From contig NZ_CP145809.1 of assembly GCF_038049925.1 (NCBI RefSeq), positions 2,328,599 through 2,392,598 of the forward strand: a DNA stretch of 64,000 bases, in the 5' to 3' direction. Each line of letters begins with the position of its first letter. The first letter of the stretch is position 1. Below the pieces are notes generated by a model. It did no database searches, was not told the DNA's origin, and was given only the letters and a program-made list of their open reading frames with translations. Shown piece after piece: positions 27,051-31,242 of this stretch. The DNA comes from Georgenia sp. M64 (GTDB lineage Bacteria > Actinomycetota > Actinomycetes > Actinomycetales > Actinomycetaceae). Position numbers and translations under genes: made by a program.

Positions 27051-27482
27051 ATGGCCTCCCCCGTCGTGTCGTGTCCCGCCTGCGGGACGAGGAACCGTGT
27101 GCCGGTGACCACCGGCGGGCGGCCGCGGTGCGCCGCCTGCCACGCCGACCTGCCCTGGGTGGTGGACGTCTCCGGTGCCGAGTTCGCGGACGCCGTCGAG
27201 GGCAGCGCCGTCCCGGTGCTGGTGGACCTGTGGGCACCCTGGTGCGGCCCCTGCCGCCAGGTCTCCCCCGTCGTCGAGCAGCTGGGGCGCGAGAACGCGG
27301 GTCGGCTCAAGGTCGCCAAGGTCAACTCCGACCTCGCACCGGAGGTGGCCGTCCGCCACAGGATCAGCGGGATCCCGACGCTGCTCCTCTACTCCGGGGG
27401 CCGGGAGGTCACCCGCGTCGTCGGTGCGCAGCCGGCCGGACAGCTGCGGCGTTGGCTCACCGAGGCCCTCGCGAGCACCTGA
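27051..27482 (+). CDS. zinc-ribbon thioredoxin (thioredoxin 2 type)
   Basis: This 143-residue thioredoxin has an N-terminal zinc ribbon (Cys8, Cys11, Cys27, Cys30) as in TrxC. The thioredoxin fold has VLVDLWAPWCGPCRQ with active-site Cys65 and Cys68, and the cis-Pro loop SGIPTLLLYSGG. It reduces cytoplasmic disulfides and should be recharged by thioredoxin reductase. ATG 27051 is preceded by AAGAAT and 6 bases, a leaderless-like start. Confidence 0.93.
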   Translation: MASPVVSCPACGTRNRVPVTTGGRPRCAACHADLPWVVDVSGAEFADAVEGSAVPVLVDLWAPWCGPCRQVSPVVEQLGRENAGRLKVAKVNSDLAPEVAVRHRISGIPTLLLYSGGREVTRVVGAQPAGQLRRWLTEALAST

Positions 27483-27547: not shown

Positions 27548-28288
27548 TCACGAGCGCACGTGCCGGTCGGCGAGGTCGTCGAAGACCTCCCGGTTCAGCC
27601 GCAGGGCGTACCGCGCCTCCGCGACGACGGCGGCGCGCTCGGTCGCATCGAACGGCAGGGCGTCCAGGCGTTCGCGGTAGGCGTCCTTGTAGGGCTTGAC
27701 CTTCTCGATGCCGTCGAACCGGTAGAACCGAAGCCCCTCCTCGGCGACGCCGTAGTGCCGGCGCAGCATCGCGGCGACCACCTGCCCGCCCGAGAGGTCG
27801 CCGAGGTAGCGCACGTAGGCGTGGGCCGCGTACCCGACGTCGGTCGCGGCGACGGCGTCGAGCCTGCTCACGTAGCGGCCCACGGCGGGTACGGGCTCGA
27901 CCCGGCCTTGCCAGTCCGGTCCCCACAGGTGCGCCAGGTCCGCCTCCAGCGCCGCGGTCCGGGCGAGCTCGGGCGCGACGAGCGCGGCTGCGGCGCCGGT
28001 GAGCCGGCCGCCACCGGCCTCCAGAGCGCGGTACACCCCGAGCTGCTGCGCGGCGAGGTCGGCGTACGCGTCCGGTCCGAGCCGGCCGTCGAGCAGCGCG
28101 GTCACGAAACCGGCCGACTCCGCCGCGCGGTGCTCCGCGCGGGTGCCCTCGCGCAGCTCGGTCGCGAGCCCGGCCGAGGCCCCGGCGGGGGCTCCGGTGG
28201 AGCGCCCGGCCGACTCCTCGGTCGAGGCTGCCGTCGAGGTTCCGGTCGGTCGCCCGGCCGAGAGCTCCGCCGTCAACTGGTGCTTCAC
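27548..28288 (-). CDS. heme oxygenase (biliverdin-producing)
   Basis: This 246-residue heme oxygenase opens heme to biliverdin, CO and iron. The proximal helix ELREGTRAEHRAAES carries the heme-ligating His53, the distal helix has the flexible glycine motif YVRYLGDLSGGQ (about 161-171), and FYRFDGIEKVKPYKDAYRERL is the conserved C-terminal part. The first 40 residues are Ser/Thr/Ala-rich and not part of the usual fold. GTG 28288 has AGGAGA. It is divergent, by 213 bp, from the bacteriophytochrome, so its product is most simply that photoreceptor's chromophore. Iron acquisition is the alternative role. Confidence 0.94.
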   Translation of the reverse strand: MKHQLTAELSAGRPTGTSTAASTEESAGRSTGAPAGASAGLATELREGTRAEHRAAESAGFVTALLDGRLGPDAYADLAAQQLGVYRALEAGGGRLTGAAAALVAPELARTAALEADLAHLWGPDWQGRVEPVPAVGRYVSRLDAVAATDVGYAAHAYVRYLGDLSGGQVVAAMLRRHYGVAEEGLRFYRFDGIEKVKPYKDAYRERLDALPFDATERAAVVAEARYALRLNREVFDDLADRHVRS

Positions 28289-28501
28289 GCCGTCTCCTGT
28301 TCGTCCGTCCGGGTGCCGCAGCAGGAGTCGTCATTCGATCACGTCCGGTGGCCCGCACGCGCGCCACGGCGTGCCGCATCCTGGGCCCGGGAGGACAGGA
28401 CCGCCTCCGATGCTGCACCCTTGGACCTGGCGCCGAGCACACGGCGCACCGGATCGCTGCGCTGGGAGACCCGCGCGATCCGCACCGGGGACGGAGACTG
28501 C

Positions 28502-30952
28502 GTGGACGACTCGCTGCTGGCGCCGCAGGTGCCCGTCGACCTGGACAACTGCGCCCGCGAGCCGATCCACATCCCCGGGTCGATCCAGCCGCGCGGCCTC
28601 CTGCTGGCCCTCGCGGCGGACGACCTCACGGTCCTCCACGCCTCCGACAACACCGAGGGCCTCCTCGGGATCCCCGCCCGTGAGCTCCTCGGCGGCCCGC
28701 TCGCCGGCGCCGTGGGCACGGAGGCGGCTGCCGTCCTCGCGGCCCGGTTCGCCGAGCCCGGTGAGGTCCGTGACCGCAACCCGCTCACGCTCACGGTGCG
28801 CGGCGCGAGCGTGGACGCGATCCTCCACCGCCCGCCGCGCGCGGACGGCGCGCGGGAGCGACCGGACACGGCCTCGCCGGTCACGGGTACCCGGACCGTC
28901 GCCGGCACCGGCACCGGCGCGCAGGGCGCCGGTGGTACGGCTGCCGGGGTCGTCGTCGTCGAGCTCGAGGCGGTCTCGGGCGACCGCCCGCTGACCTACA
29001 CCGGCACGTACCAGGCCGTGCGCGGCGCGGTCGAGTCGCTCAACCGCGCCCACAGCCTCACCGCCCTGTACGACACCACGGCCCGCGAGGTGCGAGAGCT
29101 CACCGGGTTCGACCGGGTGATGGTCTACCGGTTCGACGAGGAGTACAACGGGGAGGTCGTCGCCGAGGCGCGTCGCGGCGACCTCAACCCCTTCGTCGGC
29201 CTGCACTACCCGGCGACCGACATCCCCAGCCAGGCCCGTGCCCTGTACGAGCGGAGCTGGATCCGCCTCATCTCCGACGTCGGGTACACGCCCGCGCCGA
29301 TCGTGCCCACGCTCGACCCGCGCACCGGCGCACCGCTGGACCTGACGTTCGCGACCCTGCGCAGCGTCTCCCCGATCCACCTCGAGTACCTGCAGAACAT
29401 GGGCGTCACGGCGTCGATGTCCATCTCCCTCCTCAAGGACGGGAGCCTGTGGGGCCTCATCGCCTGCCACCACTACTCCGGCCCGTTCGCCCCGCCCTAC
29501 GGCGTGCGCGCGGCGGCCGAGTTCCTCGGCTCGGCCCTCTCGCTGCGCCTGGTCGCCCAGGTGGAGGACGAGCGCATCGCCGCGGCCCGCCGGGTGGCGC
29601 GCGACCTGGCCGGCCTGGTCGCGGCCTCGCGCGACGAGGCGGTGCCGCTGGCCGAGGCTCTCACCGCCGACGACGCGATCCTCGAGCTGCTCGGCGCCGA
29701 CGGCGTCGTCGTGCGCGCCCAGGGCGACACCCGCACGCTGGGCCACGCCCCCGGCCCCGCCGGACGCGACGCCCTCCTCGCGTGGGCGGGCACGACCACC
29801 GGCGACTACGCCTGCACCACCTCGCTCGTGCGTGACGTCCCCGAGGTCGCCGCCCTGGTGCCCGACGTCGCCGGTGTCCTGGCGATCACGATGTCCGGTG
29901 GGGACGCCGTGGCTTGGCTGCGCCGCGAGGTCGTCCACTCGGTCGACTGGGGCGGGGACCCGCACAACAAGGCCCTCGCCCGCCTGGAGGGCGACACGGT
30001 GCGGCTGAGCCCGCGCAGGTCCTTCGACCGGTGGCGCGAGACCGTCCGCGGGTCCTCCCTCCCCTGGACCGACGACCAGGCCGACACCGCGAGGCTGCTG
30101 CGCCGCCACGTCGTGGAGGCGATGTACACCCGCACCCAGCGCGACGCCCGCGCCGCCGAGACCCTCCAGTCCTCCGCACTGCCGGCGCACCTCCCGCAGG
30201 TGCCGGGCTGGGCGCTCGACGCGCGCTACGCCCCCGCCGACGGCGGTCGGGTCGGCGGGGACTGGTACGACGCCCTCACCCTGCCCGACGGCCGGCTCGC
30301 CGTCGTCGTCGGCGACGTCGCCGGCCACGGTCTGCACGCCGCCTCGACGATGGGTCAGCTCCGCAACGGCCTGCGCGCCCTCCTCGTGCGCGACCCGGAC
30401 CCCGCCGCGGCGGTCACCGCGCTCGACGAGCTCGTCCGCGCCACCATGCCCGGCGAGATGGCCACGCTGCTGGTCGCCGTCGTCGACCCCGGCACGGGTG
30501 CGGTCGACTACGTCCGCGCCGGCCACCTGCCGCCCGTGCTGCTCGACGCCGACGGCGACGCGGTCCTGACCGACGACGTGCACACCACCCCGGTCGGCTT
30601 CGTCACCGGGCACGTCACGCCGGGCCGCCTCACCGTCGCTCCCGGCGGCTCACTGATCCTCTTCACCGACGGGCTCGTCGAGCGACGCGGGACCTCGCTG
30701 CGCTCGGCGCTGGAGTCGCTGCGAGAGGCGTTCGGGCAGGCGCACGCGGCGGCCGCGGGCCGCGCCGGCGACGGCAGCTGGGGCGGCGACCCGGACGGAG
30801 GGGACGGCCCGGACGAGGGTGCCGGCCCGGCCGGCGGCGTCGACCTCGACGCCGTCGTCGCCCGGGTGCGTGACCCACGTTCGGACGACGACGCCACCGT
30901 GGTGGTGGTGCGCCGGGTTAGGCTCGAGGCGATGACGGACGTGACCTCATGA
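28502..30952 (+). CDS. bacteriophytochrome with PP2C/SpoIIE phosphatase output
   Basis: This is an 816-residue red/far-red photoreceptor fused to a serine phosphatase. PAS (about 10-160): the biliverdin-binding Cys17 in DNCAREPIHIPGSIQPRG, plus a 45-residue Gly/Thr-rich insert near 115-155. GAF (about 165-340): MVYRFDEEYNGEVVAE, HYPATDIPSQAR near 240, LWGLIACHH. PHY (about 345-520): the tongue motif LSPRRSFDRW near 503. PP2C (about 545-816): GGDWYDAL, VGDVAGHGLHAA, VRAGHLPPVLL, ILFTDGLVERRG and a final DDDATVVVV, so the metal ligands look intact. No histidine kinase module is present. GTG 28502 is set by GGAG 5 bases upstream. The stop overlaps the STAS gene. Confidence 0.95.
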   Translation: MDDSLLAPQVPVDLDNCAREPIHIPGSIQPRGLLLALAADDLTVLHASDNTEGLLGIPARELLGGPLAGAVGTEAAAVLAARFAEPGEVRDRNPLTLTVRGASVDAILHRPPRADGARERPDTASPVTGTRTVAGTGTGAQGAGGTAAGVVVVELEAVSGDRPLTYTGTYQAVRGAVESLNRAHSLTALYDTTAREVRELTGFDRVMVYRFDEEYNGEVVAEARRGDLNPFVGLHYPATDIPSQARALYERSWIRLISDVGYTPAPIVPTLDPRTGAPLDLTFATLRSVSPIHLEYLQNMGVTASMSISLLKDGSLWGLIACHHYSGPFAPPYGVRAAAEFLGSALSLRLVAQVEDERIAAARRVARDLAGLVAASRDEAVPLAEALTADDAILELLGADGVVVRAQGDTRTLGHAPGPAGRDALLAWAGTTTGDYACTTSLVRDVPEVAALVPDVAGVLAITMSGGDAVAWLRREVVHSVDWGGDPHNKALARLEGDTVRLSPRRSFDRWRETVRGSSLPWTDDQADTARLLRRHVVEAMYTRTQRDARAAETLQSSALPAHLPQVPGWALDARYAPADGGRVGGDWYDALTLPDGRLAVVVGDVAGHGLHAASTMGQLRNGLRALLVRDPDPAAAVTALDELVRATMPGEMATLLVAVVDPGTGAVDYVRAGHLPPVLLDADGDAVLTDDVHTTPVGFVTGHVTPGRLTVAPGGSLILFTDGLVERRGTSLRSALESLREAFGQAHAAAAGRAGDGSWGGDPDGGDGPDEGAGPAGGVDLDAVVARVRDPRSDDDATVVVVRRVRLEAMTDVTS

Positions 30953-31242
30953 TCGGGACCCCTGGCGACATCGCGCTGCGCGCGCACGAGGGCGAGGTGC
31001 ACGCGGTCCTCGTCGGGGAGGTCGACCTCGACGCCGTGAGCCGCCTCAAGGACGAGCGCGACCACGTCGGGGTCGTCCACGCCGTCGACTCCTCGGAGCT
31101 GACGTTCCTCGACTCCTCCGGCCTGCGCTTCCTGCTCGGCCTCACCGCGCTCAACCCCGGGATCCGGCTCGTCAACCCCTCCCCGGTGCTCCTCGAGCTG
31201 CTGGAGATCACCGGCACCGCCGGCATGTTCCGCATCGCCTGA
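30949..31242 (+). CDS. STAS-domain anti-sigma factor antagonist (RsbV/SpoIIAA-like)
   Basis: This 97-residue single STAS domain includes VHAVLVGEVDLDAVSRL and the phosphorylation motif LTFLDSSGLRFLL, where Ser56 of DSSG is the expected phosphosite. In partner switching, the dephosphorylated antagonist binds the anti-sigma kinase and frees the sigma factor. ATG 30949 overlaps the phytochrome-phosphatase stop as ATGA. That makes this protein the obvious substrate of the upstream phosphatase (inference). No kinase or sigma gene is nearby. Confidence 0.9.
   Translation: MIGTPGDIALRAHEGEVHAVLVGEVDLDAVSRLKDERDHVGVVHAVDSSELTFLDSSGLRFLLGLTALNPGIRLVNPSPVLLELLEITGTAGMFRIA

Follow-up and report, generated by a model that had tools for sequence, protein, structure and literature searches.

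The studied locus belongs to Georgenia sp. M64 (assembly GCF_038049925.1; 4.18 Mb, one contig) and is contained in a 64,000-nt stretch of contig NZ_CP145809.1 (positions 2,328,599 to 2,392,598, forward strand), hereafter the window. An earlier note had placed here adjacent genes for a heme oxygenase, a phytochrome-phosphatase and a STAS protein, and all three are found at the positions it gave, with Pfam matches far beyond chance. The features of the locus, in window coordinates, are as follows.

27548–28288, minus strand: heme oxygenase, 246 aa, predicted biliverdin source (PF01126, 4e-55)
28289–28501, unstranded: divergent intergenic region, 213 bp, likely holding the promoters of both directions; it can be aligned with 228 bp in G102, the nearest relative
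28502–30952, plus strand: bacteriophytochrome PAS-GAF-PHY fused to a SpoIIE/PPM phosphatase, 816 aa, GTG start (Pfam, conserved residues, AlphaFold2 model)
30065–30169, plus strand: signalling helix between PHY and PPM, Trp522–Gln556 (orthologue spacing, AlphaFold2 model)
30185–30919, plus strand: SpoIIE/PPM phosphatase domain, about residues 562–806 (the PF07228 match itself at 30284–30736, 1.6e-36)
30949–31242, plus strand: STAS protein of 97 aa, probably the substrate of the phosphatase, with acceptor site LTFLDSSGLRFLL (STAS_2, 7e-9; aligned acceptor serine)

Gene Organization and Conservation

Among solved structures, the heme oxygenase is closest to a bacterial enzyme of the same type (1iw0, 5.6e-44). 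As its gene is divergent, on the minus strand, a single three-gene operon is ruled out and a shared transcript is possible only for the phosphatase and STAS genes. The phytochrome most likely starts from the GTG at 28502, with GGAG just before it. The ATG of the STAS gene (30949) lies within the phosphatase stop, forming ATGA with a 4-bp overlap; this junction, already described in the earlier note, is identical in the nearest relative, which retains the heme oxygenase, fusion and STAS genes, each 96% identical to that of the window. Between these two genomes dN/dS is 0.17–0.37 across the three genes (0.17 for heme oxygenase), the STAS value resting on eight differences and having low power. 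No sigma-70 consensus promoter was found in the divergent region 28289–28501, and promoter and terminator scans of the locus gave no matches. A thioredoxin-like gene (window 27099–27482) converges on the heme oxygenase gene, occupies the same position in the nearest relative, and by eye shows a CGPC motif and an upstream Cys-rich stretch.

Phytochrome-Phosphatase Fusion

One protein combines PAS_2 (5e-19), GAF (1e-15), PHY (2e-41) and SpoIIE (2e-36) matches. Position labels were taken from what we take to be the DrBphP sequence, used for labels only. The PAS-GAF-PHY part is complete, matches solved bacteriophytochromes and keeps the chromophore-related residues Cys17, Asp240 of the DIP motif, His293, Tyr296, His324, the WGG motif and the PRxSF tongue; pocket residues are nearly invariant in 59 orthologues. 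The N-terminal Cys, DIP motif and PRxSF tongue on a PAS-GAF-PHY core are features listed for bacteriophytochromes (PMC9587094). A histidine-kinase phytochrome is ruled out, as the protein has no HisKA or HATPase domain; the earlier reading of an intact photosensory core with a SpoIIE/PPM output and no histidine kinase is borne out by both Pfam and the AlphaFold2 model.

The output domain is of the SpoIIE/RsbU type, combining the PF07228 match with the metal-binding aspartates of PPM phosphatases: Asp587, 605, 723, 796 and 797 are kept, and Asp587, 605, 723 and 796 are present in 59/59 orthologues. Its strands are modeled at residues 570–805, and the nearest solved PPM structure is that of Rv1364c (3ke6, 5.7e-28).

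The linker from Trp522 (PHY end) to Gln556 (PPM start) has exactly 34 residues in all 59 orthologues, and residues 524–559 form one continuous helix in the AlphaFold2 model (pLDDT 80, pTM 0.61). In RsbU, activation of the phosphatase by a coiled-coil linker has been demonstrated experimentally (PMC12143880), and by inference the fixed spacing would fit a similar mechanism here. PadC proteins, the phytochrome-activated diguanylate cyclases, have the same photosensory core and likewise connect it to an effector through a helical linker, but their effector is different, and their linkers are of several lengths (PMC9587094), whereas phytochrome-SpoIIE orthologues have a single one. The predicted light-to-phosphatase half of the system, in which a phytochrome of the biliverdin type would control a PPM phosphatase, is well supported.

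STAS Protein

The 97-aa protein is a single STAS domain (STAS_2 above the cut-off). Its FLDSSG aligns with the serine motif F-[MLI]-D-S-[SG]-G, and thus the STAS acceptor site is present; position labels come from what is presumably the SpoIIAA sequence and serve as labels only. Despite a superfamily match (2e-6), the protein scores below the cut-off of the NCBI anti-sigma factor antagonist model TIGR00377 (27.6 vs. 53.45 bits), and hence the gene is filed only as a STAS protein, not as RsbV/SpoIIAA.

Among 213 genomes of the family, strong orthologues of this protein are found solely beside the same phytochrome clade, in G102 and G110. Given the conserved residues, the fixed linker and the repeated linkage with STAS or with STAS plus kinase, the adjacent STAS protein is likely the dedicated substrate of the phosphatase. 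Still, family searches of the genome yield five SpoIIE genes (four besides the fusion) and eight STAS_2 genes (seven besides the adjacent one), so that pairing by adjacency is no proof. A second partner-switch cluster is located at G000:C1:488282–491574 (L094, L105, L100), comprising a SpoIIE-HATPase_c_2 fusion with a STAS gene on each side, on the opposite strand.

Distribution and Gene Neighborhoods

The fusion is widespread in actinobacteria, being present in Georgenia, Cellulosimicrobium, Isoptericola, Cellulomonas, Mycobacterium, Geodermatophilaceae, Frankia, Kineococcus and Nocardioides, and in 49 of 396 genomes sampled from the order. Its neighborhoods show three recurrent arrangements. 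In the window, G102 and G110, a STAS gene follows the fusion directly on the same strand, as does a more distant STAS in G307; in G110, which belongs to another genus, the STAS protein is 53% identical to that of the window and its gene follows the fusion after a 9-bp gap, and the fusions of these first three genomes form a clade with support 98/96. In Cellulosimicrobium, Isoptericola, Cellulomonas PhB143 and others, a convergent pair of STAS and HATPase_c_2 (RsbW-like) genes lies downstream of the fusion. Finally, Geodermatophilaceae, Kineococcus and the same-genus genomes G104, G106 and G108 have a heme oxygenase gene immediately upstream of the fusion and in the same orientation. Among the examined loci, heme oxygenase, fusion and STAS occur together only in the window and G102; many of these loci have none of the partners, and in most relatives the fusion is present without a same-strand linked STAS.

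Phytochrome-SpoIIE/PPM proteins are a listed class of phytochrome effectors with the same PAS-GAF-PHY-PPM domain order, the listing covering the effector only, without analysis of STAS, kinase, linker or target (PMC9587094). Hence the fusion itself is already known, while the recurrence of STAS linkage is new. The earlier note, which held that such fusions exist as annotations with no worked-out pathway, was nearly right: they form a recognized effector class, and our literature search, with subscription journals and preprints outside its scope, found no experimental study or worked-out pathway for a phytochrome-SpoIIE protein.

The fusions of G104, G106 and G108 (L138, L139, L140) are about 46% identical to window 28502–30952 and occupy separate tree branches; two phytochrome-SpoIIE types in one genus suggest replacement or horizontal transfer. 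The record L018 bears the name Sphaerisporangium cinnabarinum ATCC 31213 but falls with Cellulosimicrobium in the two trees, and the label looks wrong. Moreover, several Cellulomonas-like genomes have a crcB gene pair adjoining the phytochrome-SpoIIE gene (L020:3–853, L217, L220, L221; Pfam match checked in L020 only).

Candidate Kinase and Sigma Factors

The STAS gene has no linked HATPase anti-sigma kinase in the 64-kb window. A new candidate for the missing component is encoded elsewhere in the genome: a stand-alone RsbW-like HATPase of 144 aa (C1:263580–264011, minus strand), unlinked to the module, which shares about 45% identity with the kinase of Cellulosimicrobium. In the family, this kinase accompanies the fusion in 10 of 13 carriers and occurs in one of 200 other genomes (10 with both, 3 with the phytochrome only, 1 with the kinase only, 199 with neither), and in the order the respective counts are 24, 25, 9 and 338; neither set of counts is phylogenetically independent, and the genus-level Fisher test yields p = 6e-4. 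The kinase is absent at E ≤ 1e-10 from G110, which carries the linked STAS. In the kinase tree the candidate falls, with weak support, among mostly orphan kinases; as linked and orphan kinases are mixed there, strict orthology with the phytochrome-linked kinases is rejected. Its G1 box is degenerate rather than canonical (position labels according to what we take to be the SpoIIAB sequence, used for labels only), and searching solved structures by sequence yielded no informative match. This HATPase is likely the opposing kinase and binding partner of STAS.

The genome has twelve Sigma70_r2 matches: RpoD, nine proteins over the ECF superfamily cut-off, L115, which stays below that cut-off and has matches to ECF-type models only, and L116, in which region 2 is the sole match. 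Nothing in the genome exceeds the cut-off of the SigB/F/G model, RpoD scoring 131 vs. 234 bits. In the sample of the order, families f1 and f8 include 26 fusion carriers, none with a SigB/F-type factor (E ≤ 1e-50), although in f8 a divergent one with a score above that of RpoD but below the threshold could have escaped detection; 22 of these carriers have the kinase (E ≤ 1e-20). On the contrary, fusion carriers from families f7, f14, f15 and f18 have SigB/F in 23/23 cases and the kinase, at the same threshold, in 0/23. This split follows family lines and thus represents few independent events.

Discussion

With moderate confidence, we consider the locus to be a light-input partner switch whose final target, as the genome has no SigB/F-type factor, is probably not a sigma factor of that type. 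Biliverdin produced by the heme oxygenase would be bound at Cys17 of the phytochrome, and red/far-red photoconversion would be transmitted through the fixed-length helix to the PPM domain and alter the activity of this domain toward the phosphorylated serine of the STAS protein, which would be made from the same transcript. The RsbW-like HATPase at C1:263580–264011 would serve as the opposing kinase and STAS-binding partner, and the final target may be an ECF or primary sigma factor, or a non-sigma protein. Gene content, intact residues, the fixed linker, repeated linkage, co-occurrence and SigB/F absence are read directly from the genomes; from there we infer the photochemistry, substrate, kinase identity, direction of light control and target, with all steps downstream of the PPM domain drawing on linkage, co-occurrence and knowledge of the family.

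The earlier note treated the three genes as one pathway, leading through red/far-red control of an anti-sigma factor to a sigma factor. Its light-to-STAS half is upheld by the residues, the linker and the linkage, while the sigma-factor end is not: the window has no anti-sigma kinase, the best candidate is unlinked, the genome lacks SigB/F/G, and SigB/F is uniformly missing where a phytochrome carrier has a kinase of this family. A classical chain, from the phosphatase via STAS and an anti-sigma kinase to an alternative sigma factor, SigB/F-like or other, would agree with the fact that Rv1364c, the closest PPM protein with a structure, joins its phosphatase to anti-sigma and antagonist domains (PMC12143880), and may operate in f7, f14, f15 and f18 given their SigB/F factors. 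However, with only RpoD and ECF-type factors in the window genome and SigB/F found in no f1 or f8 carrier, it would here require an ECF factor or RpoD as the target of a HATPase anti-sigma protein, and we regard it as quite improbable. Tentatively, two wirings may coexist, SigB/F-containing lineages feeding that factor and the others using their own STAS and RsbW-like kinase to reach a non-SigB/F target; we see this as a possibility somewhat short of an even chance.

It is also conceivable, if rather unlikely, that the phosphatase acts on another STAS protein or on a shared STAS/kinase network, with the adjacent protein being one of several substrates. The multiplicity of STAS_2 and SpoIIE genes in the genome and the fusions without linked STAS in Georgenia and in most Cellulomonas-like loci are in line with this, but the confinement of strong orthologues of the adjacent STAS to this phytochrome clade argues against it. 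Loss of antagonist function by STAS, or decay of the module into a light sensor without output, might be read from the shortness of the protein, its low scores with anti-anti-sigma models and the lack of a linked kinase in the window; yet the acceptor site is kept, and the ATGA junction and all three genes are conserved in G102 with dN/dS below 0.4 (of low power for STAS), making such loss or decay very improbable.

The preferred reading, a light-input switch with a target other than SigB/F, has in common with the Bacillus RsbU/RsbP-RsbV-RsbW-SigB system a PPM phosphatase, a STAS antagonist and probably a HATPase kinase. In Bacillus, red light works via an RsbP-dependent pathway (PMC12627116), whereas here the sensor is a phytochrome with its own heme oxygenase, the kinase is unlinked and a SigB-type sigma factor is absent. 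Mycobacterium Rv1364c resembles the fusion in its PPM domain (3ke6), but has a PAS sensor and all parts in one chain, compared to the separate genes and phytochrome observed here.

If correct, this scheme would mean that a phytochrome signals by removing the phosphate from a serine of a STAS protein, for which a candidate kinase can be named, in hosts without the expected sigma factor, and the output of such actinobacterial partner switches would become testable. Moreover, its single fixed linker would make the fusion attractive as a part for red-light control of phosphatase activity.
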